From: Corallium rubrum | Taxonomy: Eukaryota; Cnidaria; Anthozoa; Scleralcyonacea; Coralliidae | DNA: 64,000 bases | NCBI GenBank assembly: GCA_964035015.1 | Contig: OZ036010.1 | Span: 9,620,620-9,684,619, forward strand | Reading direction: 5' to 3' | In this document: one piece after another, positions 6,991 to 44,653 of the stretch | Position numbering within the stretch: position 1 is the stretch's first letter | Layout of the letters: each line of letters starts with the position of its first letter | The notes under the pieces: model-generated | Databases searched by the model: none | The model's input: only the letters and a program-made list of their open reading frames with translations | What the model was told of the DNA's origin: nothing | Program-made: the position numbers and the translations under genes

Positions 6991-7041
6991 CGTTCGATTA
7001 TTTGAATGATCCTAACCATGAACCAACGGAAGTAAAACCAG
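6991..7041 (+). CDS. Gene A linker exon, 51 nt
   Basis: Acceptor ttttcatttag and donor CCAG|GTAAAA flank 51 nt read as x-FDYLNDPNHEPTEVKP plus one base. It is phase 1 on both sides and joins in frame to the vWA exon, making an Asp codon across the junction. Gene B has an equivalent 57-nt exon at 44597-44653 with a similar aromatic/acidic start. Further 5' exons are expected but not recognised. Confidence 0.6.
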
Positions 7042-10000
7042 GTAAAAAATACATCAAATCATTAAGAGAATAATTTTTCTCACTCTCCAACCATGTAATT
7101 GAATGGTTAGAGTGAGTGTAGTCTCATACTCAGTGAGGGTATACGTATATTTGCTTAGTAAATTCATTGGCGTAGTAATTTTGAAAAACTACTTTGTCTA
7201 AACCAAGAAAATGAAAAAAAGGCAAAGTTTATGTAAAAAGGGAATTTTTTTATCAGATATAAAACCACGGACATGGCACTGACTTACTTTGTGTTTTCCT
7301 CATGAATCATTACATGAATCATTACAAAGTTTTTGAAAATATTTTTAGACTGTAAACTCGATCTCTTGATAATTTGGGACAATTCAAGATCTATTGGCAA
7401 ATCCGCTTTTGATAACCAAGTAAAAGACTTCTTCAGGAATCTCATCAACGACGAATATTTAAATGTTGGTCCGGAAGGAACACATCTGGGCATAATCACC
7501 TTTAGTACCCAAGAAAGAACTAAAGTGTTGCTGGAATTTGGTAACAAAACAACAAAAGCTGACTTACTGCAGTATATTAACGGATTGACTTGGGCAGAGT
7601 TAGAAGGCGACGCTACAAGAACTGGGATGGCTTTGATGCTGGGCAGTCAGGTATATTTTTCTATAGGTAGTTTTGTGAAATGTTGATTTTGTAATTAATG
7701 GTTTTTGAAAAGAAAACTAACATTTGCAATTAAGGGGCTTGGAAAAAGAAATGTTTTGAAATGCAAATTAAGAGATAAAAGTACATTCTTGTGCGTAATT
7801 TGGTTAGATGTATTGATAGAAAACAGATTAATTACACTTTCAAAGTTGCTACCGTAAATCGGTTCTGCCATCTTGGATAGATTTTTTGATGTGAATGTGA
7901 CGTCGACTCACAGCTACGTCGACCCCAGAGTGAAAGCTAGCTGTTTTACTGACGTAATAAATTCGTAGTAACTGCTTATTTAAGTACGAGATTTTTCTTG
8001 AAACTCGTACTCATTCTCGTTCCCAGATCCCCTACTTTTCTTAGCGCGGCCACTCGTACTAAGATAAAAGGAACACCGCTGCCAAACGTTTTGCGCATGT
8101 GCGACGTCCAAGCTCGTCCTCGAAAAAAGAGCGGGAAAACACTGAAATATTTGGACTGGTCCGAGAGTCCGGCATAAAATTTAAAATTATAAGCATACTA
8201 CCAATTACAAAGAAATGCAAACATGCTACAGTAATAGATATTTCTTCTAAAGTCTTTTAGCAGCAAAAACGTAGCTTGAATATTTGACAAAAAACACAAT
8301 TTGAGTCCGAAACCGCGCGGATCTCTCGATTTTTTGTAGGGCAGCTACAAGTGTCGAGGTATCAAAAGTCAAGAAAAAAGTCTATGAACTATCCTGAATG
8401 AAATAAAGATCGCATTAATCAGGGCTAAAGCCTACTGAAATCTATAATCTGTCGAGCATATGGATGCGGACATGATCAATAAAAACCATAACTATTCAAT
8501 TTTCTGAGCAGTCAAAAAATCAAACAAAACACAGAAATACGAGCCGACAGTTTTAAAGGCATCAAAGATCAAAAATATATGTGGTCTTACAATGATTCAA
8601 AAGGTATGAGGAGACTATTCATAAGAGCAAAGGCACAGCTTGACAGGGTTGCAAGAATTCATAAAATAAAGGCGAATAAATACAAAATAAAACCTGAATT
8701 TTCGTCAGGAGTTTCCATCAACCAAGCAAAATTTTGCTTGCGTTTGGCTATATATTTCCTCCTTCAATCTATTTTTGCCAGCAAACATACCTCAGACAGA
8801 AAGGACAATAATTCTAATACACATTGGCTTCGTTATATCAATTCTAAAGAAGTTCAACTACAAAAAAATCAAAAAAATCTCGCTGGGCCATTGTTCTGTT
8901 TTCTACCGCTCCTTGCACGTCGGTCAGACGTTGCGTTGCCTCCGGCCAGCAGCCGGAAGTTTGGCTTCATCCAACCATAAGGCCGGCCTTATGAAGGTAG
9001 CGTTCCAGTCCTTATATAGAGTTCACTGCTACTACAAGTTCATCACGTCAGTACGTACGAGATGGCGAAAGAAGATGGAGAGTACAATGGCGAATCTCGT
9101 ACGGTAATCGCAATCAAATCTAAAGCTCCCTATTGCCTCAACGGTCACGTTGACCTTATTTGAAATGCATCTCTATACACACTGCACTTTAGTATAAAAG
9201 CCAGGAGGCTAGCCACATCAACTTTTCCTTTTTATGTTTAACTTTCAACTTTTATTTTTACGTTTTATTATTTATTTTTAACTTTCAACATTCTATTTTT
9301 ACGTTTTAAGTTTTTATTTTTGCGTTTCAACTTTTCATTTTTATTAAACTTTTAGCTTTTTATTTTCAACTTTTCATTTTTAACTTTTAACTCTCTATTT
9401 TTAACTTTTAACCTTTTCCTTTCAACTCTTCACTTTCGGCTATATTTTCAACTTTAAACTTCTTTTTTGTCATATTTTTAAAAAACTGAAAAGTTGAAAC
9501 GTAAAAATGAAAAGTTGAAACGCAAAAATTAAAAAGTTAAAACGTAAAAATAAAATTATAAAAGTTGAAAATAAAATGTTAGTATAGGAAATAACACGGT
9601 TCGAGAAGAATTAACGAAAAATCGCCCGCGTGTTTGGCGAAATCTTCATATTATGAATATTTCGCCAAACACAAGGCGATTTTTCATTAATTCTTCGAGA
9701 ACGAGTGTTATTTCCTTTTAATAACATTTCAATCAATTTTACCTTTTCTCAAAATAATGCAAAGCTTGACAAAACGGCGAAACTATAAACATCAAACTCA
9801 GCATATCAGAAGGACGTGGAGTTCATTCACAGCGTGATATTGATATAAACAGCATCTTTGAGTAATGTCTTCATCTAATTTTCAATTGTTTTAAGTTAAC
9901 CTTTACTTAACTTTCTTCATGACTAACTTCTTGAACGCTCGGCAAAAGCAAGTTAACCAGGATTCGTGTGGTTGAACTGACTTGTTTACTGTCAGCAATT

Positions 10001-11374
10001 GTTTCCATCTGCCAAATTGACATGACGTCATTTTATGTCGTAATCAAACCTTGCGGTATCAAGTCAGTTTGGCAAATGGAAACAAGTATTTACTGCAAAC
10101 ACCCGCGGATGTATGGTATTTAAAAAAATACCACATGTGGTATTTTTTAAATACTCCTTTTAAAAGTTAAAAATACAGAGTTAAAAGTTAAAAACAGAAA
10201 GTTAAGAGGTGAAAATATGTTAAAACATAAAAAAGAAAAGTTGATGTGATCTCCTGGGCTTCTATACGCCAGAGTTTTTCAGATTTCAGATTTCAAAGAG
10301 TTTTAGAAAACTCAGAAACATCAGAGTTTTCTAAAACTCTTTGAAATTGTTCTTCTTCTTATAGGTTTTTCATCAAAAGAGTCCTTTGAACGGGGGTGTG
10401 GGGAGAAGTAACGTGAAAGATGTAACGATGATTCTCACTGACGGCAAACCAATCAGAGCTAAAGGCGACACAACGTTCGGCTTTTATGATTACGATAATA
10501 GACCCGAAGAAACTGCCAGTGGACGACGCTCGCAAGGAGAGACAAAAATGGCCAAAGCTTTCTCAGAGAAACTGCGCGAAAATAGCAGGGTTGTTGGTGT
10601 TTACATTGGTAACTACGGCGACCCAAAATTGCTGGAACAGTGGACAACTACACCGTCCGATGCGATCCAAGCAAACAAAGCAGAATTTGACAAGGTTGTT
10701 TCTACAATGGTAGACAAATCGTGCAAAAAACCAGGTGAGAAGAAATTACTGACGCTAATTCATAAATTATAGTTAGTGAAAAAAACATGGTTTGAAAGCT
10801 CGACAAAAGTCATATTGTTTTATGTTTCGGTTCAGGTTTATCAAAATTTGAGAACTTTCACGGTTAATTACTGAACATATTGTTTTCTGTATAAAAAAGA
10901 AATCATCCAATAGCAGCATTTGAGTTCACCTACTCAGTCGTACCTTTAAATATTGATAAAGCTAAAACAAAAGATTTGTGCACCTTCAAGTACCTTTCAA
11001 CACTGAATCGTACGTAGTTCGATTGTTAACCGCCTTGAAGTTTCTGGGTTTCTTTCCAAACCATGTTTATTTTCTATATATATTACATACAAGAAAGACA
11101 AAATTGGTCCATGCATGTAAAACAAAAAAAAGTGAAAACTCAATACACTACAATTATTATCTCGCGCGCATACAGTATAGTAGCAGTAGCAGTAAAAGTT
11201 GATTGATCCCGGTAAGCGGTCACTTCGTTGCGTTCATATAAGGAACCAGGCTCGGGCCCACTTGCCAAGGTCTCAGCAAGCGGGATGAAATTTTCCCCGT
11301 ATGAATACTTAATTCATCCCAGTTAAACCGGATGAAGTCTCTGGCAAGGACAAAAAATTGGGTTTTTCTAAGAT

Positions 11375-11409
<35 letters not shown>

Positions 11410-11414
11410 CTTAC

Positions 11415-11465
<51 letters not shown>

Positions 11466-14400: not shown

Positions 14401-17400
14401 TTGCCCCCGTGCTGCCCCCGCGCTGCCCCCGGGCAGGGGGGGGGGGGGCAGCTGCCCCCGCTGCCCCCGTGGCTCCGGCGCCCCTGATTATCGGACAAGC
14501 TATTTTTTTTTAAACGGGTATTAAAATCGTTAGTATTATTCGAGTGGATAATTCGCCCATATCGCTTTACAAAATTAGAAACATGAGCGTATTTATACAC
14601 GCAAACACATACATACTGCATATACGCATAAAGTGACTATTGTATATATGTTAGAAAGAAAGTTGTTTAATAAAGTCTTAAAGTTGATATTAGGAAGATT
14701 GATTTCATTTATGACTTCTCCGCGTTAGGTGGGATGAAAACTACATGCATATAAACGGCACAAGACAGACTTCGACTCGCTTACTGGGACCATATGAACT
14801 GGCCCAAAATTGAAACAGATTGACCCAAAATAGAAAGTTTATACATATTACGACATAAATGTCTAACCAAAATGTTTATTTTTATCCCCAGACTGTAAGA
14901 AAGACCCTACGAATCCAGAGTGCATCAAACCAGGTAAGAAACTCACCAACTTGGTGTATAAGTACCTTAATTAACCTTGCTCCGCTATCCGAGTTCTAGT
15001 GGCTCAATGGTTAGAGCGTCTGGCTAGCATTCAGAATGTTGTGGGTTCGAGTCCCGCTTAGAGCTCAGAGTTTTTCTGAGTATTACTAACTAACACAGCT
15101 TGTACAGCAAACAACTGACAATTATTGTTTCTGAACTTGTTGTCATAAGTTAATGCAACAAGCGGTTATATTGGTGACAGTATACACCAAAACAATAAAT
15201 GGCAGCCATATTGGTGTCACATTTTTCTCCTACGGGAAGTATTTTATATTTTATCTAATTTAATTTATAAGCTTTACTAATTTTACCTATTACAAACATG
15301 AACTGGACAAAAATTCTACAATAAACATAACATAAGATGGTGGCAGGGTAACCACAACAGCTTTTGGCCAATTACTGTGGTCCCAAATAAAATTCAAGCA
15401 AAACAGACACATTTACAAAGTTACATATACAGACACCAGGCTAGAAACAACATGAAAGCGGTTTTGATAGGCCATGTGCCCAATTCAATTTTCTGTAAAT
15501 CATTTTCTACAGATGAGGATCATAGACTACATTATAAGTAAGACATTGTCATTGTGTATAGTGCTAGTTCAAAGTGAAAACCAGTCAATTTTTTTTTCAT
15601 AAACTGGATATATCTTAGAAATAAGATTGAAAGGAAATTCTATTCTCTTTCCCTTCACTCAGCCGAATAGAAAATATTTTATGTCTAAGTGACTACAATG
15701 AGACAGGTTGGAGGTGACCGCCCAGCAAATGTCAGCTGGTCAAAGTGTTTATTACAGATCACGTGCGTCATAGTTTACAATGTCAATTGTCAAGCTAGGA
15801 CCTAGTCGTCATAGCCAGACACAAGGTTTACATAAAGAACTACACATGGGAACGTTCAGTATCGTTACTGAAATATTTTAAAAACGAAGAAAGATACAAA
15901 AAAGTTGCAAAAGATCTTCTATTACAATTGACAGACTTCATTTTTATTGCCAATGTCCTTTAATATATAATAAAATAATTAATAATATATTAAGCGTACA
16001 CACTCCGACGTTTAGCATTGTTCTTTATTATTCTTTAGGAGAATGTGAATGTGCTAGTACTACAGCAGTTAAGTATGTCAAGTCTGGTGAAAGCAGTGGC
16101 AAAGTCTACTGGGAAAAACCATCTCTTACCTGTTCAGCCAACCCACCAGTAATCACAGAGGTAGTGGTTAACCCTCCAGGCACAGAATCTCCGAAGGATT
16201 TTGACGTTGGCCGCGATCATATTATTAGTTATACATACAAATACCAGAATGGTGCTAATAGTTATCTAACACACACATGTAAAGTGACCGTGCAAGTGAA
16301 AGGTAAGTGTGCTACAAGAAACTTTATATTATATCTGCATAATGCTATGTATAAGTAATAGCATGGTTTTGAGTGCAATTTAAAAAAAACAAACATGCAC
16401 GAGTGAGTTTTTCAAAAACTATCAAAATGGCACAAGTCCGAAGGACGAGTGCTATTTGAGGTCTTTGAAAAACTCACGAGTGTATGTTTTCCCAAATTGC
16501 ACGAAAAGCCATGCTATTACTTATTAATAATATACATGAAAAAATGTCCAAGTCAACTGTACAGCTGTACTTACATTACAGTGTTCACTCCTCGTATATA
16601 TTTGGTTGTTTAAACAGGCTTTGTTTCTTCTACCACTACTCGAGAAAGTTTACTAAAAGCACTAAAAATCTTCTAGTTTTCTTGCAGGTACTTTACCTGA
16701 CAACAGTAAGGATTGTTATATAGCTAGAGTTTCACTGGATGCAACGATGACTGTCATTGGTTGGTTTGTGGTCACATGACCTTAGCTAAATTTCAATGTC
16801 TACCAAGCGGGCAATAATTGAGAACTTATCGCCTGCTCGGTCAGTAAGTTTTCAATTGTTGCCCGCTGGAACTTTGAACTCTCCACGGCATCCTAAAAAC
16901 AAAAGCTTGTTTGGTACGGAAAAAAGAATATTTACAGGTCTTCAAAGCATGTGTGAAGATTAACTGGAGAAGTGTATTGCTGTTCTTTTGTTCTGAGACT
17001 CATATTTGTCTGGTTTGAAGTGAAATTACGGAGCCACGCGAAATGTTTTGGTAAGTCTTAGCGTTTGTCTTTTGTGTACTTTCCCTTGATAAACGTCGAA
17101 ATTATTCAGCGAAACTCAAGCTATATAACAAAACACTTAATGTCTGCTCCCGCGAGGGAAACAGTTAGTTTTGTTTTCCCTCGAGTCTCGATGTTTCCCT
17201 CGACTTCGTCTCGGGAAATATCAAGAGTCTCGGGAAAAAAAGCTAACTGTTTCCCTCGGGAGCAGACATTAAGTGTATAATAATTAGCTTCAAATTTGAA
17301 CGAATTGTTCTCCTCCGTTGAAATCTTGGCCGCCATATTTGTTTATTATGTGCAGACAGAGCCTGGGCACGAGGTTGGAAAATGCCATCCGTCAAAATCT

Positions 17401-20400
17401 GTTTAGAACGTGATTGTCTCTTTTCAGTTTTTAAGGTGCTGTTACACCATGGACAGTAAAAAGACTTTTTCCTCTCCATGGTCACATGATGCGATTTTTC
17501 TTGCAACTTGCAACAAATTTACATATGGGGAAAAAATCGCAAGTTGCAGGAAGGGTGTTACACGTGCAGCAACTTGCGATTTTTGTTGTAAGTTGCAGCA
17601 AAAAGTAGAACCCTTAGTGTTTTTGATTAGTTCATTGGCTATGTATTTCCTTTTTTCTGCACTGTATTTCCTTAAAACTGCACTGCTCTTAGCCAATCAA
17701 AATTCAGAAATTTTTTCCCCATGTATATTATTAGTAGGATAAGGTGCGCAAAAACTTCTGAGTTCGCTGCCACACAATAATTATTCCAAACATTAAGACT
17801 ATGATTGTTTACTGTTCTGAAGGGAATCAAGAACAATCAGCTCATTACTTGAAACAATACGAAAACGTTCGGAAACGTTACCGTATATATATATGTACAT
17901 AGTCTGAGTCTCTCGATATTAAAACAAAAGATACTTCCCAAATTTGCTTCAGTAAGCACGAACAACGCTTGAAATCGAAACTGGCTATGAAAGTTAACAG
18001 TAAATGCATTACGATCTCATTGCCAACCTCAACTTGCGACTATTGTTTCGTGGGCATTGCAGCAAATTCGGGAAGCTGGTGTGTATTGACTGGAATTCAG
18101 TTTCAAACCAGACACAATGCTACAAAGCCCAAGCCTGTGGCGTTCAAAAATGTCGCGTCAAAAATATCGCTTGCTATTGATTCCTGACGAACGAACGAAC
18201 GAACGAACGAACGAACGAACGAACGAACGAACGAACGAACGAACGAACGAACGAACGAACGAACGAACGAACGAACGAACGAACGAACGAACGAACGGAC
18301 GGACGAACGAACGAACGAACGAACAAACGAACGAACGAACGAACGAACGAACGAACGAACGAACGAACGAAATCACACATAGAACAAGACACAATGCTAA
18401 AAAGCGGTGCCTTGTGGCGTTCAGAACATCACGTTAAAAATGTCGCGTCAAAAATGCGGCTTTCTATCGATTCCTAACGAACGAACGAAATCACGCACAG
18501 AATATAAAGCGGTATGAAAGTTAGCTGCGCCCGCAAGCTAACTTTCAGGGCTGCGCCCGTAAGCTAACTTTCATGGCACCGCAATATTACTGTCGTGGCA
18601 ATAGAAGCGTTCCTAAAATAATTGTGCAATTCGTTTGTTCAAATTGATCAATTCATTTGATGAACTTCCTGTTTATTATTGCTAAACTTCCTGTTTTGAA
18701 TTTGATTGGTTCCTGGTTTTTGAATAACCAATAAGAAAAAGGATTATTTGCCAAACACCAATCAAATTCAAAACAGAATTCAAAACAGGAAGTTTAGTAA
18801 TATTTTCATCAAATGAATTGTTCAACGTGAGGAATACAACTGCACAATTATTTTAGGAACGCTTCTATTGCCACGACAGTAAATATTAGTACCATCATTC
18901 CAAGACCTGCTGCCAACTTGACCATGCATGTAGCTCAGTCGGTAGAGCGTCGGACAAGTAAACCGAACTTCGCGTCTAGATCTCGAGTCTCAGCCGCGGT
19001 CGAGTAGAGTTTTTCTCTACACTTATATACCCGCGGTATGGTTCGTCACTGGAAGTAGCACCTAATATCATTATATATTTTTACAATTTTATTTTCAGTT
19101 TGCGACTGTCTATCTAAAGATCTGGGTGTCTTTTACGCCAGACCCAATTTTCCAACTTGCCCTGTTGATTTTGAAGTACCAAAACCAAACTGTCACGGAT
19201 TAAACAACGTCAGTATGTCTACAAGTGGCGTACTTGATTCCTATCAGATTGGTAAACATACACCAACGTATAACTACGTTATGTCGAATGGTAGGAAGGT
19301 GGATTGTCATCTCAACTTTGAAGTCAAAGGTTTGTAAAAAATCTCATCACTATTCTGCGACTAGACTGGTTTTCACGTCTGCGCGCGGCTTTGCTTATAA
19401 GAGCGGCGGGCATAGTCGAGCCCATGCACAGTATTAAAATGTGGTTGATGTTTCGTGTAAGACAATGAAATGGTTTGATAAAAGGTATCAGAATATGTGT
19501 ATTCGCCATTCTGATTCGATAAAAAAGACTAAATAGGGGTGAAGAAGGCTTTGTCTGAATGCAGAAGACTTTTTGAAAACAACATTATAGACGGAGCTGC
19601 ATGCAGATTGCCCTTGACATTAACCCTTTGGCTACGAACGGCGGCCAAAACGACCCCAGGACGTCAGATTGTTGACATGGTTTGAGTCTACTTGCATTAG
19701 AAAAAGCTTGTTTTAAATTTAACCATTCATTTTTAGCGAGTTTACTCACGACGTGAACTTCAGCAAATGATTTTGAATTGTTTGTCAAGTTTATTTGGGC
19801 GCTAAAGGGTTAACTGGAGTATTCTATATTTAAAAAAAATACTTAAAATGACAACGTAACATTTTTTGCAGTTTTCCGTTTCCTTGCTTCATTGTTGAGA
19901 TAATTCAGGTTTGTTTGATATAAATTAAACATCTTGATGTTACATGTGCATAATGTCTTTTCAGAGAAATTATATATCGTTGATAATATAAACCAAATTA
20001 ATTTTTGATAATAGCAAAGATATATAACCTTCTCCCAATCTCGTTCCCAGAGCCCACGTTCCCCTTACCCAACGGGCGGGAAACGAGAGGCTCAGCTGGG
20101 ATAATCCGTTCACGCCATCACAGGATTCGTGTTATCCGGAAGAAGAGTTACATAGAGTTCACTGTGTTCATCAGCCAATGAAATATCGATGTGAAACGGG
20201 TTATCCCAGAGTCTCTCGTTTCCCGGGTGGAGAACGTGGGCTCTGGGAACGAGATTGACCTTCTCCAAAAACACACATCATATGCACATGTGACGTCAAG
20301 ATGTTTAATTTGCATATCAAACAAACTCAAATATCTCAAGAACGAAGCAAGGAAACGAAAAATTGCAAAAGATGTTAGTCTATAATTTTAAAGTGCCTGC

Positions 20401-23614: not shown

Positions 23615-23675
23615 ATCCCGCGTGTTTGGATCAGAGTATCCTGCACGGAAAATCATTTGGTATATTTTTTTAGTT

Positions 23676-29716: not shown

Positions 29717-32413
29717 GTTCAATAGCTTGCGTCTTACGCACGCTGTGATTGGCCAATTACCGTGTTTACATCAGGCTATGTAAACATGGTTCTGATGTCG
29801 CACCAAATTTCTTAGCCTTATTCTCGATGACGTCTTTCATAGAATCTTGTTTCCTTGTTTCATTCTTGAGATATTCAGATTTGTTTGATATGCAAATGTC
29901 ATACGTATGACATCACGCTGAGTAGTTAAAATTTTCCACTCGCATACATGCACGTAGTCGTGACTGGTCACTAAACGTGCGTAGTTTTGTGTAAAATATT
30001 TAAATCATCCTAAAATTGATGCTCTTTCAAAAAGTCATTCATTATGCAGTGTGATGTCATAAGTATGACTGATGTGATAAGTATGACATTTGCATATCAA
30101 ACAAACCTGAATATCTCAAGAATGAAGTAAGTAAGGGAAATTCTGCGAAAGGTGTTACTTTGTCATTTTAAGTGTTTTTTCAAATGCAAGCATAAAAAAC
30201 TGGGGTGAAATTTCGTTCCATAGGCAATAGTTGTATAGAAAAATGCATGTTTTGTATAGCAGCACGATGCAGTTTATGTAAGTCTCAAGGTTCAAGATGA
30301 CCTAAGAAGCTGTGAAGTGAAACCTCCGCTATTATCTCAGCAATGTGTGGTGTACCATTTCCAATGTGATCGGTGCGAAGCCGATTATGTCTGTTATACC
30401 AGCCAGCACTTGTACCAACGCATTGAAGAGCATAAGGCTTCAGCAATTGGCAAGCATATTAGAGTACTTATAAAGGAAATCTGGATAATTTAAATTATAT
30501 GTTTTCTATTCTGCGTAAGTGCAGAGGAAAATTTGACTGTTTGATCTTTGAAAGGTTTTTCATTAGGGACTTGAAACCGTCACTGAACACACCGAGTTAC
30601 CTTTGTGGACCAGTTTTCAGCCTATGGAACAAATTACAAACTAACGAACAATCGATCGTCAGATTTATATAGATACGGCTCATGTGGATTGCATCAAAAT
30701 AGTAATCCAAAATTTAGCAAAAAAACCCACCTATAATGAAGATGGTTGTGTGGAAGAAAAAATCAGTGTCTGAAAGGTTGTCACGGCACTTTTTACTTGA
30801 TTTCAACTTATTTCTCTTTGGTGCCAACTCCTGCCACAAATAGCGAATATTCCCTATAGGCTAGTGTAACTCGTATGTACCTGGCTTAATGCACGAACTT
30901 GCCACCAATTTGGCGAGAATTTCATCCATCTCCTTGAAGTCCGCTTCCAGAACATATTTATCAGAAGTAGCTAGCTTTTTTAATATTTCTTTAAATTTAT
31001 TTCGGTTACTTCCAACGGCAGCGCCTACAACTAGTACGCTCTTGTCCTTTAGCATTCCAGCGTATTTGATGGCTTCATCTTTTGTGTTGTGTCTTCCATG
31101 TGGCGCGCCATCAGTAATCAACACGATAACATCGTCAACATTAGGTCTATTATTTCTTGGATTGTTTGCCGGGAAGACCTACGAAAATGATGAAGTATAT
31201 TTGTTATATATCACGTGTCAAAGTCCATTTTTCAAGCTTTTGACTGGCCGCCATCTGCCTCTTACCCAGGCGCGATTCAGGGGGGGAGTGCGGGAGCGCG
31301 CAAGGAGCGATGGGATAGGAGCGCTTTAAGTGAAGTGCCCTCTTCCCATCAGCCCCTTCGCGCAAGACTCTCGTCCCCAAAAAGACGCCTGTTTACGCTA
31401 AATGGGAAAACTTTAAATGTTTTGAGGTAATTTTAGTATGTGTAATTTGCTTTGTAATTTGCCTGGATTATGTATTGTGTTAATAAAGTTTATATGCCAA
31501 CTAAACTCGATGTGAATGTGATTCAACTGCTTATTAATATAATCTCATTGAGTCGCTTGTTGTCGATCGTCTAGGTAATATACTGCTTGCTTAGTAAAAG
31601 AAACTGAGTCCATCATGGTATGACTTATAATAATGCAATAAAGCATAACGTAATACACAACTGAAGCACTACTGTTATTGAGGGTAGTAGATCAATCAAA
31701 TTCACCTTTTACTTACTGGTAAAACCACATCCTGTGTAATATAATTATAATATTGCTTCACTAGCTTATATAATTTCGTTGAGTGTGTGCATTTTTATAG
31801 TTCCTTGGCATGTTCGCTTGTTGTTGGTCGTCTAGGTAATATACTGCTTACTTAGTAATGGCTTGCTGCTTAGTCTAACAACTACAAAATGCAAGTAATA
31901 AGCACCAAATAATGCAAAAAATACTGATAAACATGTACTATGTCAAACTATTTGCACGTCTAGATTAACGCCGTGAAGTAGGCTAAGCTGCCAGTTCACC
32001 ACTGCACCAATGTTTTGCTGGTCCTGTAGCTCAATCAATCCAGCTTTTTCACTAACGGCTGGTGAACTGGCAGCTAACTTCACGGGGTTTCTAATGATCG
32101 CTTGAATTTACCGAATCTAGCATTGTAGGTTATTTCATTATCGGAAACTTTCGCATAGGCGTTTACGTTTTGCTGGTCACTGTGCAAGATTATATGGGCA
32201 ACCAGTGTCAGAGATTTTATTCTGTGTTTGCAAAAGGGAAAGCTGAGGTCGACAAGATCTTGCCTATCCTAATATTCTGAGAAGAAACTCAGGATTACCG
32301 GATCCAACAAAAATAAAATCACTAATGGAGGACTGCAACGTATATAGAGACGCAATATATATAGGATGTGTAGAAGAGGGGCTAGATTATTGATTGATGA
32401 TGATGATGATGAT

Positions 32414-35400: not shown

Positions 35401-38400
35401 GATTCCAGTATGAATAACACCAGAATGAGAAATTTTTTCTGGCGTATTTGTAATAATGTGGTCAATCAGGGTGGATGTTTTCAGAGTAATTCGAGTAGGT
35501 TCATCAATTAATTGAGACAATTGGTATAGCTCACATAAGGAGCTCAGTGTTTTTGTTGGTATATTGGAAAGTGTTTCCTTTTTTAATAGGTCACAGTTTA
35601 GATCACCCAACAAATACATTTCTTTATCTTCATCATCAATTTGTTTGATCAATCTTTCCAAATGATCAAAGAAATCTGATGATGCATTGGGTGGTCTGTA
35701 CACAGTTGAAACAATAAATGGTCGACTGTGTGGTTTGGTGATTTCTACACAGACAGTCTCTAATTCATTTCAAATTAGGTCAGATCGAATTTTGTAATTG
35801 TGGAGTTACGTAAATATATGCAAACACCACCCCCATTCCGTGATCTATCTTTCCTAATTGTATCATAGCCATCTAAGTGAATCAAGTTATCAGTAAAACT
35901 TGAATCAAGCCGTGTCTCATTGAAAGCAATTAAATCAATATTTTTGTTAGACATCAAGTGCCGAATTTCATCTATTTTTTTAGGCAGACTAACAATATTC
36001 AAAAAGGCCATTTTAAAACCTCTTTCATTTGGAATTGAATTAAGGGTTGTTGAAAAATTGCTACTCATATTTTTGTTTTCCGAATTATTACAAGATATTA
36101 CTGATTCATAACCCTCTCTACATATTTCAGATAGTCTGTCCAATCTCTTCTCTGACTTGTCTGAAAAACCTGCTTGTTAATATTTCTAACATTATTATTC
36201 TGATGATTTGTTCTGCCCTGTTTCAGATAGGCACAAAATGCACTTCCTAGGGCTCGATCTCCATTCTTATTCAAATGTAGGTTTGATTTATTTAGTAATG
36301 GCTGTTCAATACAGTCATTATCTATAAATGTTATTTTATGTTTGATACACAATTCATGTACCAAATGGTTAAAGTCAGAAATTTTTGTGGCACTAACTTT
36401 GTTATCATACCTCTTAATGACACTCGAGATTGCAATCTTCCTTGTTTTGCCTTTGACCAGGTTGATAAGTTCCTCCAGCTCTTTGGCAACTTTCTCGGGT
36501 TGTTCACGAACGAAGTCATTTGTACCCACATGTAAAATAATTTCTTCATGCTGGGTATCTTCACTCCAGTATTGCTGCATTTTCTGCCTTATTTGACCAA
36601 CTTTCGCTCCGCTGTACGAGTGGCAAACTGTATTTTTCCTGGCAGCTTTTCCCAATTTCTTCTCATTCATATTCTTCACCATGGAGTCTCCTATTATAAG
36701 GACAGTTTTTTCCTGAGGTGATGAACTGGTAGGTTTTTGGGTTGTTGAACTTTCTTTCGTCGATGTTGAGCTTTTGCTTTTGGTGATTGTTTTCTTCGAC
36801 TTTTCGAATTTGGCTCTTTGTTCCTTGCAATACGTGTTGATTTGCTTACTCAGGTCGTCGCTTTCTTCAATCCTCTCCATCTCATGGCCTTCTGAGCTCA
36901 CCACGTCATTCAAGCTGGCATCTTGCTCTTCTTCTACAGGAAGAACTTCGAAGCGGTTGTGACATGCGATGGAATTTGTTGTTTCAGTTTCTTGCTTCTT
37001 GCTTCGGGTCGTCTCAGCTTTCACCCATTCATGTTGCTTTATGTCAAGAATACGCTTTATAGTTGTGTTCTCCTCTGTAATTTCTTCGACTGTTGTCTTT
37101 AGTGATGATATTTCGGCCGCCATCTTCTCATTCTGTTCAAGAAGCGCCATTATCTTCGCATTGGTTTCGATTTTATTCTCGCATTCTTCACTTTGTTTTT
37201 TCTTTACATCGTTTATGATAACTATCAGATCATTTAAGTCCTGTTTGTATGAGCAGCATTGTTCGCATGCCTGATTATCGTCGACAGTTGTTGTTGTTTC
37301 ATCCGAGGTTTCATCAGCTTCGGTATTTGTTTTCATCACGTGCTCGGATGTATTTGGTGCATTTTCCTCATCTGTGGCTTTCGAACGGGTGGCATAGCTT
37401 CTCAAGATCGTGTAGAGTTGCTTCTCGTTATTATCCTTCGTCACAGTAATCTTTTTGTTAGTTGCACTGTCCCATTTCAAAGACAGTTCAGGATTACTGA
37501 ATTTGATGTTTTCACCACGCGGTGTCGACCATCTTCCGTTGATTTGTAGTTCGGTATTTACAAACCTTTTTAACGATTCTAAGTCGCCTTCCCATATCAA
37601 ATCATCGTCAGCTAATAATAAATGCGAACATTTTAAACTTTTGGAATCATCAGCATCGCTTTTTGGTGTAAAATTTTCGAAAGACGCGGAGCACGCGGAG
37701 GTGTGACTAGTCGCCATCTTGCGGTATACACTATCGCACATGTACGATTTAGGCAAATTACAAAGAACTCAATGACCTGAATAATGAGAAACACTAGAAT
37801 ACAATAGAATCACACGTTTTAGTCCACATGCACGATTTAGGCAAATTCTAAAGCCTGGTTTTCATATGTCGCCGATCGTCGGCGATTTGTGATTTAGATG
37901 CATGTTAAAACGGGAAATGCATGCAGCAGCATGTTAAGTAATAAAGAACAATGCAGAAAAGCAGTGCTTTTATTCTTTTACTTAACATTCATCTAAATTA
38001 CAAATCGCCGACGATCGGCGACATATGAAAACCAGGCTTAAAGAACTCAATGACCAACTCAGTCCACATGCACGATTTAGGCAAATTCTAAAGAACTCAA
38101 TGACCTGAATAATGAGAAACACTAGAATACAATAGAATCATCACACGCCTTAGAAGACGCTCAGAATACATAATTATATTATTTTATGCGAATAGTCAAA
38201 TTTCTGGTGATGTTGATGATGATGACGATAATGAGGTTGATGATGATGATGATGACCATGATGACGATGATGATAATGAAGATGATGATCATAATGACGA
38301 TCATTACGATCTAATGTATGTTTCACCTTTTCATTGGCAATCTTTAGTGCCAAATCCGTTCTTGTCTTGTCCCCTTTGACATCATCCCATTTTAAGTTAC

Positions 38401-41400
38401 GCACATACATTGCCAGTTCTTCTGCGTTGTATATGTCTCCAAAGTTTAACAGCATCTTCGTTCTTTCTTCTTGACTAAAAATCATCAGAGCCATTTGTGT
38501 TCCGTCAAGACCAACATTTAAGACTCGGTCGGTAACGAGACGTTCCAGGAACGGTTTGACATCTCTTTCAAAGGACGAGCGTCCGACGCTGTAAGACGCG
38601 TCGATGATTAACAAAAGATCTTTTTTACATTTCACTAAAAAAAGAGATAAGCATCTTTTAGACTTTCAGTGTGTGCACTGTAACTACACAGGCCTTCCGG
38701 CAGGAATTGAACCCACGAGGATCAAAATTAGCTGTGGCCTTCCGTCGAAAGTCTTTTTGAACTCACTTTATAAACTAAGTTTATTTATACTGGATATACC
38801 TCTATTAGTTCATTGATCTAGTGTTACTCAGTACAGGAGGAAACCGGAGTACACTAAACCAACGCTTTACTTATCTCAACTGTACTTCGTAGGAATTCAT
38901 TTAAAGGGCACCACTTATTGGTCCAGTGTTACTACAGGAGGAAACCAAAGTAAACTAATTCTATATTTATACTGGATAACCCCGCCATCAATTATATCGA
39001 AACTGTTTTCCCTAGAGGTCTAGTAAGGGTTACCCTCATTGATCCAGTGTTGCAACAGGAGGAAACCGGGGTACTCGTGGTTCAAAAAGGTCACAGCTTG
39101 CGCCCTTGCTTTTCCAAAAACACAGCTCAACATTGAAGCCTTGCATGGTGGCGGCTGTTATATTTTGAAAGCTTTCTTATACTCTTTATTTACACTCCCT
39201 CTCAGTGTCCTTCGCCCTCTCTACATGCCTCGTGACTCCTCATATACTATTGGTTACTTATTAACTAATTCTTTTCCTGAAAGGAAGTAGTTGCATCACC
39301 ATGCACATCCCTCTCTTTGTTCAGATAAAGTTTCTTAAACTGTCAACTAAAACAAAATGTGAAATATTTAAAATTTTATTATTGTTGTAGTTCGTGTTCG
39401 TCTTATTATTTTTTTAAGTCTACTTAATAACCATATTTGAGTTAATCGTAGCCTAGTTTCTAGGCCTTCCTCGGTTGACACGTTTCGGAAGTATCCGAAC
39501 GGACCGCTGGGGAAGGCCAAGCAACATTCGTAAACACTTTCACTTTGCAGCTCAGTTGTTTATTGAGGAAGAATTGTGATGTTATGACGTCCTAAGTGTT
39601 TCCCGACACTTACCATTTCCATCTGCATAAAATAATACAAGCCTACTCACCTCTGATCGGCGAAGGTTCACTGTCCTAGCTTCTTATCACTAGCTTTCCT
39701 TCTGCAATCGCCAAAAGTTGAAAGTTAAACAGTTAAATTTTCATTTCGAGCTCCAATTGGAATATATTCCATAATTTCCTTCTTTCGATCGCCAAGATCT
39801 TTGGTAAAATCTTCGCAGACATCCTTATGCTTTTTATATAATATACTGTCGCTACGCTAGATCCCAGGAACACTCGAAGGGCAGAATGATTCTGGGCAGG
39901 ACCTTTTTACGAATGTTACGCGCCAAGCTCATGGCGGAAACGAAAGGCTTAGAAACTAGGCTAAGTTAATCGGATTTCCATACAGTTCTCTTTCCATACG
40001 TCTCCTTGTTGATGTTGGAGTTTTGTTTTCGGATACGCTGTATTGTTCATCATCTGGTTCTGTCACTATCTTTTATTCGTTTGAAGAAAGATGCATTTCT
40101 TATAACTCAGTGTCTTTGATTTTCTGCAACGATTTTAGTCCCTTTGCGTTCGATCACAGTGCATGGGATAGATTCAAATCGTGTTGTAAATTTGTTTTTC
40201 TTTCTCAGCTTGAGGATGACCAAATCTCCAACTCTTAGATGTGAAGGTTGAGCATGTCGTCGTTTATCTGCGTATTCCCTTCCTTTGTTTTTCGATTTAA
40301 TGTCATTCTGTTTGGCTTCATTATGTCTATTCACCACTTTATCTTTTGGGTTTAAAGTGTCACTGTAATGAAAAATCGTCAGTCTTTTTTGGATCTTGTC
40401 ATAAAGTACATTTACAATGAGGATGAACGGCGTTTGTGGTTTGTCAATATCTCATCTCGTTCACGAAAACAACTAAAGTTCCACGTATTTTATTTAATAC
40501 TATAAGCATACACAATTTGAGCACTTTCTATTGTTTATTTCTAGAGATATTCCTAATTTTACGATTTTCATTTCTCTCGTTTTGGAGAAAATGACGTCAT
40601 CAGTCATATAATTTGCATATTTCCAAAACATGAATATCCCTTTGAAACTGCTGGTTCCTGACCCCCTCCAATGATAAAATTAAATTTGCTTATTTATCAG
40701 CAATCAAGTAGCGTTTACTCCAGCGAATAAAAGTGAAGATTAGGGCTTATGTAGGCATTGTAATTCAAAAGTTTAAATCTTTATATTTTTAAACAATGAA
40801 GCAAAAATGATAATTCCCTTTTTAAGGTTTAGAGAAACCTGTGAGCATGCGCTTAATATGGCAAACACAAAAGTTCCACAGAGAAATGTATTTTATTGGA
40901 TACTATAAGCATACAAAGTTTAAGTGCGTTCTATTGTTTATTTCCAGAGGTATTCCTTATTTTACGATTTCCATTTCGCTCGTTTGGAGTAAATGACGTC
41001 ATCAGCCATAAATTTGCATATTCCCAAAACACGAATATCTCTTGAACGAGATGAGATCTTGACAAACCACAAACGCCGTTCACCCTCATTTTAAATGTAC
41101 TTTATTTATGATAAGATAAAAAAAAGACTGACGATTTTTCCATCATAGTGACACTTTAACATTGGTAACGCTCCTCGCACTGGGCGGTTGAAAAGAAGTT
41201 GTGCTGGTGGTACATTGGTGGAACGGTGTGGACTGGTGCGATAGCTTAACAAGAAACGGGAAAGTTCTTGTATCCAATTCCGGTGTTCTGTACGAGCGGT
41301 TTTGATTGCTTTTCCTAGAGGTTTCATAAATGCTTCGGCCTCTGTATTTCCTTGTGGCCACTCAGGCGTTGACGTTTCATGTTTCACACCAAGCTGAGCT

Positions 41401-42785: not shown

Positions 42786-42867
<82 letters not shown>

Positions 42868-43653: not shown

Positions 43654-43701
<48 letters not shown>

Positions 43702-44653
43702 TCACACAGTGTGCTTGGGCTACCTCTGTGGTCGTCACAGACTTCGATGCACTTCCGTTTATCTGATTTAAGTGAAGACTTATAAGTCCATGTTTTGGAG
43801 CTTACTAAACAACCACCGTCGTCGGACGTTACGTAGATTGTGGCAACCGTACCGTAAACTTGTGCTAACGAACGCAACCTGGTGTGATACTGATCTACTG
43901 TTTCAGACTCACCTTGTGTAGCTTGTCTAAATTTGTAAACTTCATATACAAACGGTTCTTCTGTGGCTCAAAATAGTCTGTAAGGAGTTGCTCTGCTTTA
44001 TCCACATCATCATTCTCGCCCGGGTCAGGAAACTACCGGAAAATTTCTCTTATGCGTGGTCCTGCTTGATATAATAACAAAGTGCGTTGACGGGTAGCCT
44101 ACGCATACCCTAGTTCATCCGGATCAAATGGTGGCATGGGAGAAACGATGGGAGAAACGAATGATGCCATAGTTGTTCTTATTACAATATCAACTCCTCG
44201 TCATTGTTATATTTTGAACGCTTTCTTATACTATTTATTTACACTCCCTCTCACATGCCTCGTGACTCCTCATATACTATTGGTTACTTATTAACTAATT
44301 CTTTTCCTGAAAGGAAGTAGTTACATCACTACAGTGGCCCAACAAGTAGTCACCTCATTGACGTTATTATGTGTATAGTTATTATGACAAGGAAGTACAA
44401 AGACATTTTCCAAAGTCATCGGGGAGTATACGCTATAGGGGAGTATATACTATAGTATATACAGTAATTGATTTGATACTCGTATTTTCGGTTAGTATGC
44501 CCGCATATCACGGGAAATAGATGCGCCGTGTCCGCGAATATGTGTTTATGTATAGTGAACTGATCAGAAGTTTAATTACCCATGCGTCTTGCTTACCTGT
44601 TTTTTCTGATGCTGAAGATGGTCTACCAACGTCATAAAACCAATCATCGTATC
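28347..44653 (-). CDS. Gene B: vWA-HYR-dicysteine (galaxin-like) protein, inverted paralogue of gene A
   Basis: Minus-strand exons 44653-44597, 38634-38327, 31178-30881, 29618-29367 and 28525-28347 join in frame. Order: aromatic/acidic linker, vWA with complete MIDAS (DASYS, TRTD, TDG), one HYR domain, C-terminal three-CC module, stop TAG. Intron phases match gene A, including the phase-0 intron inside vWA. Gene B lacks the CKKDP linker and the second HYR-like exon. Introns 1 and 2 are each 6-7 kb and carry a gypsy element and a CR1-like LINE, both in the same orientation as the gene. The 5' exons with a signal peptide were not found. Function as an extracellular adhesive or matrix protein is inferred from domains. 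Confidence 0.8.
28560..29366. repeat. Intron with long CAA/CAG-rich low-complexity tract (28800-29305)
   Basis: Most of the last gene B intron is (CAA)n with CAG interspersions, including a pure CAA run at about 28893-28965. The long ORFs on both strands (poly-Thr, poly-Leu, poly-Val) are repeat artefacts. Confidence 0.88.
29367..29618 (-). CDS. Gene B HYR domain
   Basis: Acceptor tatgtgaaag|GT, donor AAAG|GTAAGT; 252 nt, phase 1-1. Features 'CLCHE', 'MVEWPEPQFSC' (W-P-E-P strand), 'PFSVGKHTIVYTYKLKGG' and 'CPVNFNVKG', a textbook HYR layout. Closest in the window to gene A 16039-16302. The acceptor is poor in pyrimidines, so its exact position is less certain than the frame. Confidence 0.87.
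29660..29720. repeat. (AT)n microsatellite
   Basis: About 55 bp of AT dinucleotides within the gene B intron. Confidence 0.9.
29830..30235. mobile_element. TTAA-family-related foldback
   Basis: 'ttcattcttgagatattcag' and 'gatatgcaaatgtcatacgt' on the left pair with 'gacatttgcatatcaaac' and 'gaatatctcaagaatgaa' on the right. Ends near 'aatttcgttccataggca', as in the element at 20866. Same family as the elements near 20.4 kb; ends not exact. Confidence 0.6.
30300..30625 (+). pseudogene. Penelope-like element C-terminal (GIY-YIG) fragment
   Basis: Broken frames read 'VVYHFQCDRCEADYV' then 'QHLYQRIEEHKASAIGKHI', the GIY-YIG region of Penelope-like proteins (compare 'VYKFKCHDCESLYVGE' in the 48.5-50.7 kb element). 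A second frame, 'ILRKCRGKFDCLIFERFF' and 'IRDLKPSLNT', is the usual C-terminal end. A frame break near 30470 and the absence of an RT domain mark it as a 5'-truncated dead copy, from a different lineage than the 48-51 kb element. Confidence 0.72.
30881..31178 (-). CDS. Gene B vWA domain, second half
   Basis: Acceptor atcattttcgtag|GT, donor CCAG|GTACAT. Starts VFPANNPRNN, has 'VIVLITDGAPHG' (MIDAS TDG), 'SVLVVGAAVGS' and ends 'LAKLVASSCIKPG'. Phase 0 at the start and phase 1 at the end, exactly as 10365-10734 of gene A. 298 nt; slightly shorter than the A copy. Confidence 0.88.
31179..32980. other. Gene B intron 2, distal part: repeats only
   Basis: A ~48-bp unit (cgcttgttgtcgatcgtcta / cgcttgttgttggtcgtcta) occurs at 31553 and 31818. 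An inverted repeat 'gctgccagttcacc / ggtgaactggcagc' spans 31990-32080. A (GAT)n microsatellite with GAGGTT interruptions covers 32390-32550. No exon seen. Confidence 0.55.
33196..35703 (-). CDS. LINE ORF2 main part: endonuclease C-terminal half and reverse transcriptase, 835 aa
   Basis: Residues 1-120 continue the APE endonuclease: 'MYRPPNASSDFF', 'LLGDLNCDLLK', 'GVIHTGISDHSLVF' (catalytic SDH). The RT core spans roughly 340-620: 'LSSNKATGIDKISCKIIK', 'NYRPISVLPAISKIMERI', 'FIDLKKAFDTVNHQIL', 'GVPQGSILGPLLFLLYIND' and 'RLFADDTNLT' (FADD catalytic box). A C-terminal thumb/tail follows to the stop. The start shown is the first Met of this frame only; the real protein begins upstream at about 36143 and is split by a frameshift between 35760 and 35780. 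Confidence 0.92.
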   Translation of the reverse strand: MYRPPNASSDFFDHLERLIKQIDDEDKEMYLLGDLNCDLLKKETLSNIPTKTLSSLCELYQLSQLIDEPTRITLKTSTLIDHIITNTPEKISHSGVIHTGISDHSLVFAIRKIRIIQKKEKNTIEIRNMKKFDEKKFVDELLTQHWEYVYFFGHDPNAMWEIWKDLFLEILDKHAPLQQKKVRSNKIPWITNKIKNLINTRDKLKRKAIISKSEIDWINYKAARNQVNIELRNAKQNYYSTRIADQKSNPKKAWKSINHLLGKQTKQTVVNELNMGENILNDPQEIADGFNEYFSNIGPDLASKIDVPNCTFETYINKTKSEFAAFQPTTVNDVFHLLSRLSSNKATGIDKISCKIIKIAAPAIAESLTHIFNQAIALSTFPDEWKVARVTPLFKNGQRNIPGNYRPISVLPAISKIMERILYNQLYNYLTKFELLSNSQFGFRKSHSTATALLDCTNEWYVNLDRKLFNLVVFIDLKKAFDTVNHQILLKKLEFYGIRGQALSFLKSYLTNRSQKCKINGFVSSEHTVKCGVPQGSILGPLLFLLYINDLPECLDNTRPRLFADDTNLTASGDSINDIEVTVNSDLENLKDWLMANKLSLNVAKTEFMLIRPKRMKTDSHPNIFIKNKQIKQVYECKTLGIVVDQHLSWNDNTKNICKKIATAISALRRVKPFVEKDTLISIYNAIVRPHFNYCCEVWDVIGETQSKRLQKLQNRAARVIMNMSNDVDHTIALQALGWEPLKLMRKKAKAILMYKILNKMGPEKLTNLFTYKSEITNHKLRGISSGLCLPQPRTNYMKNSFMYEGAHVWNSIPNEIRECKTLSHFRNKIATHIF
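35775..36143 (-). pseudogene. LINE ORF2 N-terminal endonuclease part, cut off by a frameshift
   Basis: 122 codons with 'MAFLNIVSLPKKIDEIRHLM', 'IDLIAFNETRLDSSFTDNLI' (the catalytic NETRLD region) and 'GGGVCIYLRNS'. It is the N-terminal third of the APE endonuclease and leads straight into the 835-residue frame, which begins in another reading frame about 15 bp later. Stops occur in all frames right at the join, so this copy cannot make full-length ORF2 without frameshifting. It overlaps the end of ORF1 by 46 bp. Confidence 0.82.
36098..37717 (-). CDS. LINE ORF1 with coiled coil and SGNH esterase domain
   Basis: The frame is open from a Met at 37756, but the ATG at 37717 (aagATGG context, MATSHTS) follows the 5' UTR repeats and is the likelier start, giving about 539 residues. 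The N-terminal third is acidic/polar, then a coiled coil ('NAKIMALLEQNEKMAAEISS' onwards) and a Ser/Thr/Lys linker. The C-terminal SGNH hydrolase has 'VLIIGDSMVKNM' (nucleophile Ser), 'YSGAKVGQI' (Gly block), 'ILHVGTNDF' (Asn block) and 'LHLNKNGDRAL' (His block). All four SGNH blocks are intact. Esterase ORF1 proteins are known from CR1-type LINEs; their substrate is not settled. It overlaps ORF2 at its 3' end. Confidence 0.88.
   Translation of the reverse strand: MATSHTSACSASFENFTPKSDADDSKSLKCSHLLLADDDLIWEGDLESLKRFVNTELQINGRWSTPRGENIKFSNPELSLKWDSATNKKITVTKDNNEKQLYTILRSYATRSKATDEENAPNTSEHVMKTNTEADETSDETTTTVDDNQACEQCCSYKQDLNDLIVIINDVKKKQSEECENKIETNAKIMALLEQNEKMAAEISSLKTTVEEITEENTTIKRILDIKQHEWVKAETTRSKKQETETTNSIACHNRFEVLPVEEEQDASLNDVVSSEGHEMERIEESDDLSKQINTYCKEQRAKFEKSKKTITKSKSSTSTKESSTTQKPTSSSPQEKTVLIIGDSMVKNMNEKKLGKAARKNTVCHSYSGAKVGQIRQKMQQYWSEDTQHEEIILHVGTNDFVREQPEKVAKELEELINLVKGKTRKIAISSVIKRYDNKVSATKISDFNHLVHELCIKHKITFIDNDCIEQPLLNKSNLHLNKNGDRALGSAFCAYLKQGRTNHQNNNVRNINKQVFQTSQRRDWTDYLKYVERVMNQ
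37738..38147 (-). repeat. LINE 5' UTR tandem repeats (~80 bp, three copies) with a MITE inserted in one
   Basis: Units at 37738-37815, 37821-38052 and 38061-38147 share 'acgatttaggcaaatt' and 'aactcaatgacctgaataat'. The middle unit is split by the MITE 37853-38037. Tandem 5' repeats often act as promoter modules in LINEs; that role is inferred here. Confidence 0.75.
37853..38037. mobile_element. 185-bp MITE in the LINE 5' UTR
   Basis: GCCTGGTTTTCATATGTCGC and GCGACATATGAAAACCAGGC are perfect inverted ends, with an inner GCCGATCGTCGGC palindrome. The neighbouring uninterrupted repeat (gcaaattctaaagaactc) supplies an empty-site control and shows that TAAA was duplicated on insertion. Confidence 0.82.
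38170..38300. repeat. (GAT)n microsatellite just inside the vWA exon donor
   Basis: GAT/GAC-rich tract beginning about 30 bp after the donor of exon 38327. The His-rich translation across it is intronic read-through, not protein. Confidence 0.8.
38327..38634 (-). CDS. Gene B vWA domain, first half
   Basis: Acceptor atctctttttttag|TG, donor AAAG|GTGAAA. Starts 'KCKKDLLLIIDASYSVG' (MIDAS DASYS), then 'FERDVKPFLERLVTD', 'MALMIFSQEERTKMLLNFGD' and 'KGDKTRTDLALKIANEK' (MIDAS Thr). 308 nt, phase 1 start, phase 0 end. Co-linear with gene A 7349-7650 and similar along its whole length. Confidence 0.9.
38640..39155. repeat. Intron segment with SINE fragment and three spaced direct repeats
   Basis: 38675-38718 matches the tRNA-SINE tail of the 58.5-59.1 kb family (acacaggccttccggcagga...ttgaacccacgagg). 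The unit 'agtgttactacaggaggaaacc' recurs at about 38820, 38928 and 39047. Confidence 0.6.
39156..39304 (-). repeat. Gypsy 3' LTR
   Basis: Shares 'catatactattggttactt' and 'aactaattcttttcctgaaa' with 44205-44333 but has an extra ~17 bp (agtgtccttcgccctct). The short length (about 130-150 bp) is small for a Ty3/gypsy LTR. Confidence 0.8.
39449..39964. mobile_element. MITE with 8-bp duplication GTTAATCG inside the gypsy 3' region
   Basis: Inverted ends TAGCCTAGTTTCTAGGCC and GGCTTAGAAACTAGGCTAA are flanked by GTTAATCG at 39441-39448 and 39965-39972. An 8-bp duplication fits hAT-type insertion. 516 bp, noncoding. Confidence 0.82.
40040..40355 (-). pseudogene. Gypsy integrase C-terminal domain remnant
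   Basis: The minus-strand frame has 'VVNRHNEAKQNDIKSKNKGR' and 'LRVGDLVILKLRKKNK', the conserved GDLVxL-xxKKNK tail of Ty3/gypsy integrases. It is the continuation of the 41160-41700 integrase part, separated from it by the TTAA-flanked MITE. Confidence 0.75.
40356..41155. mobile_element. 800-bp MITE with TTAA duplication (piggyBac-like)
   Basis: Ends AGTGTCACTGTAATG and AGTGTCACTATGATGG (complement) are flanked by TTAA at 40352-40355 and 41156-41159. Reading across the empty site restores the integrase frame position, confirming insertion. The interior carries two diverged direct copies of a ~170-bp segment (40467-40640 and 40867-41040). Noncoding. Confidence 0.85.
41160..41800 (-). pseudogene. 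Gypsy integrase core remnant
   Basis: Minus-strand fragments show the zinc-finger CxxC end ('CLPCQITGPV'), the first catalytic Asp region ('DADFYGPLPSG'), the second ('FKSDNGPSFNSKDF') and the glutamate helix ('WPQGNTEAEAFMKPLGKA'), followed by 'LSRFLLSYRTSPH' and 'PAQLLFNR'. So the D,D,E triad positions are recognisable, but a stop (near 41625) and frame changes break the protein. Confidence 0.8.
41889..42436 (-). pseudogene. Gypsy RNase H domain remnant
   Basis: The minus-strand frame carries 'ARRALSSVKRRYLQTEKEAL' (RNase H Glu region) and, after a one-base frameshift near 42305, 'FNLITDHKPLQQIYN' (catalytic Asp), 'RIARWFLRLQQYNFNVIYRS' and 'SENPADFLSRHP'. Upstream it stops abruptly at the foldback 42437-43722, where RT should be. 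Confidence 0.82.
42556..42582 (+). ncRNA. Hammerhead-like motif, dimer copy 1
   Basis: CTGAAGA (42556-42562), stem II GGGG/CCCC capped by CTAG, GAAAC (42576-42580) then GTT. ACGU after GAA is self-complementary (dimeric stem III). Stem I can form between AATTGAC upstream and GTAATT downstream of the predicted cleavage site with one bulge. Confidence 0.6.
42725..42751 (+). ncRNA. Hammerhead-like motif, dimer copy 2
   Basis: Same core as 42556-42582, 169 bp downstream: CTGAAGA at 42725-42731 and GAAAC at 42745-42749. Two cores on one RNA in tandem would allow the paired (dimeric) fold. Confidence 0.6.
42790..42862. repeat. (TA)n microsatellite in foldback left arm
   Basis: About 73 bp of TA repeats between the ribozyme dimer and the inner palindrome; a matching tract lies at 43658-43700. 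Confidence 0.9.
43723..44176 (-). pseudogene. Gypsy gag remnant and unassigned sequence
   Basis: Minus strand from an ATG at about 44170 ('MASFVSPIVSPMPPFDPDEL'), then an internal stop, 'RTLLLYQAGPRIREIF', 'KAEQLLTDYFEPQKN' and, in another frame, 'SETVDQYHTRLRSLAQ', all typical of gypsy gag. At least two stops and one frameshift. The part 43723-43870 does not look like gag and may belong to the neighbouring foldback. Confidence 0.7.
44205..44333 (-). repeat. Gypsy 5' LTR
   Basis: 129 bp, TG...CA in element sense, closely matching 39156-39304. A start codon for gag follows about 35 bp downstream in element sense. Confidence 0.8.
44597..44653 (-). CDS. Gene B linker exon, 57 nt
   Basis: Acceptor attttttcttcattag|GA and donor ACAG|GTAAGC flank 57 nt reading x-YDDWFYDVGRPSSASEKT plus one base. 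It is phase 1-1 and joins in frame to the vWA exon at 38634 across the 6-kb intron filled by the gypsy element. Similar in size, phase and aromatic/acidic start to gene A 6991-7041, which supports both. Confidence 0.65.

Follow-up and report, generated by a model that had tools for sequence, protein, structure and literature searches.

The metal-binding site of vWA domains is marked by the motif DxSxS, T, D, and the HYR fold is an Ig-like beta sandwich. SVEP1/Polydom and the cnidarian Polydom-like proteins, according to passages of PMC12549020, carry an N-terminal vWA domain and HYR in one secreted protein. Another extracellular vWA protein of corals, the TSP-1/VWA protein found in the skeleton, is described in passages of PMC4890752 as containing three vWA domains, TSP-1 repeats and F5/8C. 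Galaxins and calcarins, as portrayed in excerpts of PMC12419799, have hairpins with dicysteines (CC) and a single Cys on either side of the CC region. The same source mentions large sponge proteins in which a galaxin-like stretch lies between other domains; a galaxin-type stretch within a multidomain secreted protein is therefore not new in kind.

The window analyzed here, a stretch of 64,000 nucleotides of the Corallium rubrum genome (C37:9620620-9684619, within the 474 Mb that were searched), contains two convergent genes, termed A (+) and B (-), in which a vWA domain and HYR are followed by a terminal exon with a dicysteine tail (Table 1). In comparison with Polydom/SVEP1, this tail stands in place of Sushi, EGF, pentraxin and ephrin-type domains, which were not called in A or B (Pfam, E 0.01); nor were TSP-1 or F5/8C called, unlike in the coral TSP-1/VWA protein. 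Among solved sequences, A matched just two, a collagen VI alpha 3 chain and proximal thread matrix protein 1 (PTMP1). Both are matrix proteins by name, but A and B each have one vWA domain and no collagen domain was called in them. The HYR module is shared with hyalin and other HYR proteins, from which the exons of the family described below differ in that they begin with CxC (18 of the 18 fetched) and contain four cysteines in 16 cases (five in HYR 2 of A and in its copy). The tail resembles galaxin and galaxin-like proteins (PF24748; PTHR34490) in its dicysteines, spaced at 10-15 residues, and in the single Cys before and after them. However, it has only three CC, in a terminal exon that follows vWA and HYR, and tandem dicysteine repeats do not make up most of the protein. 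That this combination is not a named family had been suggested earlier, and no paper naming it was found in open-licence PMC full text; within that literature the vWA-HYR-CC order is, as far as seen, new. As a kind of protein, A and B are ordinary; their combination of modules was not found described.

The exon borders of A and B were taken from the sequence and joined via AG/GT sites. Every exon of both genes has AG/GT borders, and the joined exons form a single open frame through to the stop codon, encoding 498 (A) and 391 (B) residues once the candidate signal-peptide exons are included. The introns are in phase 0 inside the vWA domain and in phase 1 at all other junctions; the match between the two genes in this respect, which the earlier note had read from the letters, is confirmed by the in-frame splice joins. 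Both genes also end, as described there, in a three-CC module and a stop codon, with the variant C-CCC-CC-CC-C in B. The shared module order holds for vWA-HYR-CC, but not for the number of HYR modules (two in A, one in B).

The earlier note had recommended a search for the signal-peptide exons, and this yielded candidates for both genes. The scan (a hydrophobic ATG exon with a phase-1 donor) found none for A inside the window; a relaxed scan extended upstream gave three candidate places, of which the nearest, which is also the most hydrophobic, was chosen. For B, only one upstream place in the window passed. Apart from these candidate signal peptides, no further long hydrophobic stretch was noticed by eye in A or B.

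Table 1. Exons of genes A and B, and the position of gene C. Positions are those of the window unless preceded by C37.
Gene	Feature	Position	Strand	Basis and remarks
A	candidate signal-peptide exon	C37:9620213-9620297		relaxed scan; joins in frame; ~0.3-0.4 kb outside window
A	linker exon	6991..7041	+	phase 1-1, AG/GT borders, in-frame join
A	vWA 5′ half with DNSRS	7349..7650	+	ends phase 0; Pfam VWA 56 bits
A	vWA 3′ half with TDG	10365..10734	+	phase 0-1; family HMM
A	HYR 1	16039..16302	+	phase 1-1; Pfam HYR over cut-off
A	HYR 2 (divergent)	19099..19329	+	phase 1-1; family alignment and HMM
A	terminal exon, C-CC-CC-CC-C galaxin-type module and stop	20947..21140	+	Pfam Galaxin_repeat
B	candidate signal-peptide exon	47650..47731	-	sole upstream place in window passing scan; in-frame join
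B	linker exon	44597..44653	-	phase 1-1, splice check
B	vWA 5′ half with DASYS	38327..38634	-	ends phase 0; Pfam VWA 44.6 bits
B	vWA 3′ half with TDG	30881..31178	-	phase 0-1; Pfam VWA 29.1 bits
B	HYR	29367..29618	-	phase 1-1; family alignment
B	terminal exon, C-CCC-CC-CC-C module and stop	28347..28525	-	Pfam Galaxin_repeat
C	near-identical inverted copy of A	C37:9703782-9691851	-	just outside window (L013/L014)

Two introns of B contain mobile elements. A LINE-type element on the same strand as B lies in the vWA intron (window 33196-37768, -); it encodes an endonuclease and a reverse transcriptase, and a second frame has a GDSL-type match. Retrotransposon frames (integrase core, RNase H), probably of LTR type, are found in the linker-vWA intron (window 41106-42356, -).

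Domains were called by Pfam twice, in single open frames and then in the joined whole proteins, with cut-offs of 23.8 bits for VWA (PF00092), 21.7 for HYR (PF02494) and 28 for Galaxin_repeat (PF24748). The vWA assignment is solid in both genes: the whole proteins scored 67.6 bits (A, residues 50-175) and 78.7 bits (B), with no Pfam match for the 3′ half of A when it was taken alone. The vWA metal-binding motifs had been called complete, and the required residues are indeed present in A (DNSRS, T, TDG) and in B (DASYS, T, TDG).

HYR is solid in A, where HYR 1 reached 26.0 bits as an open frame and 28.4 in the whole protein; HYR 2 gave no Pfam match. In B, the assignment appears to rest on alignment (43% identity to HYR 1 of A), the open frame scoring 17.2 bits, under the cut-off, and the module being absent from the whole-protein listing. 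Across the family, only two HYR loci reached E 0.001 in a genome scan (C37:10.216 and C12:4.731 Mb), and two further exons given to Pfam (L013, L020) had no match. An AF2 model of the HYR exon of A, built with 16 family exons, was all-beta with a mean pLDDT of 91. Its PDB matches were weak (pilus chaperones and cadherins; best E 0.007). PDB searches by Foldseek and VIA-align yielded no match of weight.

The relation of the two tails to galaxin is borderline by profile. Galaxin_repeat scores were 30.6 (open frame), 29.1 (genome search) and 27.8 bits (whole protein) for the CC exon of A, and 29.4, 26.0 and 24.8 bits, respectively, for that of B. The Pfam check advised by the earlier note thus bore out vWA in both genes and HYR in A, but not HYR in B, and placed Galaxin_repeat over its cut-off in the open frames but just under it in the whole proteins.

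A and B had been regarded as a pair, but the same order of modules occurs at many other places in this genome. Among the 83 matches of the PF24748 profile were short terminal exons not only near A and B but also on C12 and C25, with many more at C37:11.0-11.18 Mb; tblastn of the A and B exons in fetched loci placed HYR and vWA beside several of these short CC exons. Family HMMs agreed with tblastn, although they were built from the same exons and their scores are not independent. Genome searches with the exons of B gave 39 matches for CC, 17 for HYR and 89 for vWA. The 23 vWA matches of at least 55 bits comprise 15 5′ halves and 8 3′ halves; the next score was 48, and of the 66 below 55 bits three, which are 3′ halves adjoining a 5′ half, were used and 63 were dropped as other vWA genes.

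vWA, HYR and CC are collinear, on the same strand and within 30 kb at 11 of the 15 family vWA loci, which lie on four contigs (C1, C12, C25 and C37), and the 3′ vWA half was also found at nine of these 11. At the remaining loci, vWA and CC were found without HYR (C1:2.714-2.720 and 2.869-2.881 Mb), vWA and HYR without CC (C1:13.37 Mb) or vWA with neither (C25:2.80 Mb). Within the 15 loci lie 17 of 19 HYR exons; the chance of a same-strand HYR exon in a random 30 kb is ~0.0006. Thirty-six terminal CC exons were entered (35 after the removal of four inside galaxin-repeat frames, plus one from the family-HMM scan), of which 13 end family vWA genes, 18 form an array and five are elsewhere.

Among the family exons fetched, phase-consistent acceptors and donors near the domain ends were present, by raw count, in 13/13 vWA 5′ halves, 9/9 3′ halves and 18/18 HYR exons, and a phase-1 acceptor lay within 12 bases in 17 of 19 CC rows, the two exceptions being a half exon cut by the locus end and a truncated copy (L033). 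The vWA 3′ half begins at the same residue in all nine cases; DxSxS occurs in 11 of 13 5′ halves (DxSxT in the other two) and TDG in 9/9 3′ halves, and genes that keep the full module order have one to three HYR modules. The conserved collinear order is taken here, in place of a transcript, as evidence that the exons belong to a single gene. The order at the 11 loci and the shared splice phases support the earlier proposal that vWA, HYR and dicysteines are united in one predicted secreted protein.

Judged by their sequences, A and B are two distant members of an expanded, partly clustered gene family. We read its products as small secreted extracellular adhesins, a reading to which we give a probability of roughly 0.55. 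The family is defined and countable, this genome alone having no fewer than 11 vWA-HYR-CC loci, and its signature (a vWA domain split at phase 0, CxC-type HYR and a terminal CCCG module) can be used to search skeletal, mucus and single-cell data sets.

The 18 arrayed terminal CC exons occupy C37:11.00-11.18 Mb. In the 50 kb fetched from this array, which hold five of them (L028-L032), no vWA or HYR was found. Comparison of the copies with one another showed an acidic stretch that closes with RKK, along with two small exons containing cysteines, and these copies seem to belong to small cysteine-rich proteins. Compared with most vWA genes, the splice acceptor is shifted inward by two codons. Since the arrayed tails fetched lack vWA and HYR, at least two kinds of protein seem to share the CC tail.

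A and B resemble each other much more than chance would allow (blastp E 1e-29 in the vWA 5′ half, 2e-17 in HYR and 8e-11 in CC), but the two genes are not the inverted duplicate that they had been taken for. In the vWA 5′ half, A is 44% identical to B, compared with 83% to the gene at C37:9.598 Mb and 93% to gene C, which is the inverted copy of A; the closest kin of B are on another contig (61% identity to two C1 genes). In a tree of 13 family vWA 5′ halves and 6 other vWA domains, the family was set apart from the latter (96/99) and A paired with C (93/87). B grouped with C1 and C12 genes in a clade of six (94/96), nested in one of nine (90/90) to which A, C and the genes at C37:9.598 and 10.24 Mb do not belong; the last two supports are just under the usual 95.

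The exons of C are open. Its 5′ end was not found, the similarity to A stopping between the linker and vWA exons of A. In the DNA blocks shared by A and C, identity is ~90-98% as far as the intron preceding HYR 2 and 83-91% from that intron onwards, and divergence is greater in HYR 2 and CC than elsewhere. The coding comparison gave a Ka/Ks of 1.51, with 58.5 of 70 differences non-synonymous. By our own arithmetic about 54 of 70 would be expected to be so under neutrality, and neither positive nor purifying selection is therefore claimed; that purifying selection is not visible counts against our adhesin reading.

The mostly non-synonymous differences between A and C, the clustered copies on C37 and C12, the occurrence of the same tail in the array, where the fetched copies resemble small cysteine-rich proteins, and the squid galaxin-like EsGal1, described as antimicrobial in passages of PMC7853314, would all suit secreted proteins of recognition or defence (in mucosal immunity, as effectors or for recognition) that evolve fast and were diversified by tandem duplication. 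We consider this unlikely, given that the bootstrap intervals of Ka/Ks include 1 in both parts of the gene (0.90 to 7.9 for vWA and HYR 1; 0.66 to 2.7 for HYR 2 and CC), that the divergence of the A-C 5′ introns (~3-6%) is no lower than Ka there (2.7%), and that the metal-site residues of the vWA 5′ half are invariant among the four members closest to A.

A near-neutral Ka/Ks may also mean that A and C are recent duplicates under little constraint, while older members (B and its kin, and the genes on C12 and C25) carry the function. C may lack the 5′ exons of A, and fragments of the family do exist, as is clear from the B-like CC exon at C37:9.7706 Mb, which is truncated. Nevertheless, the 452 aligned A-C codons contain no stop or frameshift and the examined splice sites of C are intact, which leaves this explanation very improbable. 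The truncated exon itself (C37:9770584-9770688; L033:4584-4688) is 80% identical to that of B in the match, has no HYR in the 7 kb fetched, and is likely a fragment.

Fifteen tails, all of at least 50 bits, were compared (11 from vWA genes and four from the array; four weaker rows were dropped). Fourteen have nine cysteines and one has ten. CCCG is present in 13, the exceptions being A and its copy C, in which the extra Cys is near the end. In contrast, no CCC occurs in four open frames with galaxin repeats from the same genome, each of which has 20-22 CC. An AF2 model of the tail, built with 13 family exons, predicted three hairpins (strands 14-17/20-23, 28-31/34-37 and 41-45/49-52) with the CC in the first strand of each (16-17, 30-31 and 43-44); the best of five models had a pLDDT of 79 and the rest 61 to 51. 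The tail would thus share the hairpin ladder of galaxins, with moderate confidence and in one model of five. The galaxin-type character ascribed to it earlier is in agreement with the Galaxin_repeat scores at threshold, the hairpin model and the published galaxin layout. It is not galaxin proper, but a minimal version with the CCC motif of the family.

A tail of this type could place a vWA adhesin in the calcifying matrix, that is, the genes may encode skeletal organic matrix proteins. Passages of PMC2726143 and PMC4890752 present galaxins as coral skeletal matrix proteins, vWA proteins are reported in coral skeletons or as aborally expressed at settlement (passages of PMC3204972, PMC4890752 and PMC9532382), and galaxin-repeat matches are, as noted, numerous in this genome. 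However, tail pI ranges from 4.6 to 9.3, and in 8 of the 11 fetched vWA-gene tails it is 7.6 to 8.95, with three acidic, including that of A; such values do not suggest a conserved surface for mineral binding. This is weak evidence, and charge does not decide on a mineral role, because calcium binding by galaxin itself is reported to be absent (passage of PMC2726143). Moreover, galaxin-like proteins occur in cnidarians without skeletons, according to a passage of PMC12419799, and the passages of skeletal and galaxin literature consulted name no vWA-HYR-CC protein. A mineral role is not indicated by these sequences, since the tail is mostly neutral or basic, is not galaxin proper and also occurs on the array without vWA or HYR (in the five exons fetched). 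We consider a skeletal function unlikely, and a galaxin-type tail alone does not imply a skeletal protein.

The products of the family are most likely secreted adhesins of a matrix or a secretion, as predicted above, and adhesion by the vWA domain is their most probable function. The protein would be secreted via the candidate signal peptide, which is followed by the linker, vWA, one to three HYR modules and the terminal CC module. The vWA domain would bind a protein ligand via a bridging Mg or Ca ion, HYR may act as a spacer, and in the CC tail three beta hairpins would make up a small ladder held by disulfides. The published ladder pairing uses eight of the tail cysteines and leaves one over; as mature B has an odd total of 15 cysteines (16 minus one in the signal peptide), we infer one free thiol in B-type members, available for an intermolecular disulfide. 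Such bonds could dimerise or cross-link the protein in mucus, mesoglea, a basal adhesive or skeletal matrix. The even total in mature A (20, five of them in HYR 2) counts against a free thiol, and the adhesin reading as a whole is weakened by the low Pfam scores of HYR across the family and by the fact that only one of the five tail models is fairly confident. The odd-cysteine tail nevertheless provides a testable cross-linking idea.

A wider scheme is doubtful: lineage-expanded vWA-(HYR)n-CCC adhesins in which the surplus tail Cys would serve as a point of covalent dimerisation or cross-linking, with the tail shuffled onto small cysteine-rich peptides and the family diversifying under selection for ligand or microbe recognition. 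If this were true, the CCC tail would serve a cnidarian secretion as its general dock module.

The window also contains repeats outside the exons of A and B. A TATC microsatellite of ~1050 bp is located at 55161-56211, and minisatellites at 23670-24279, 44749-46394 and 57463-58147. An RT frame of 741 aa (-), which we take to be Penelope-like, lies within 48517-51341, and its last ~200 residues recur near-identically in the opposite orientation at 50700-51341 (+).
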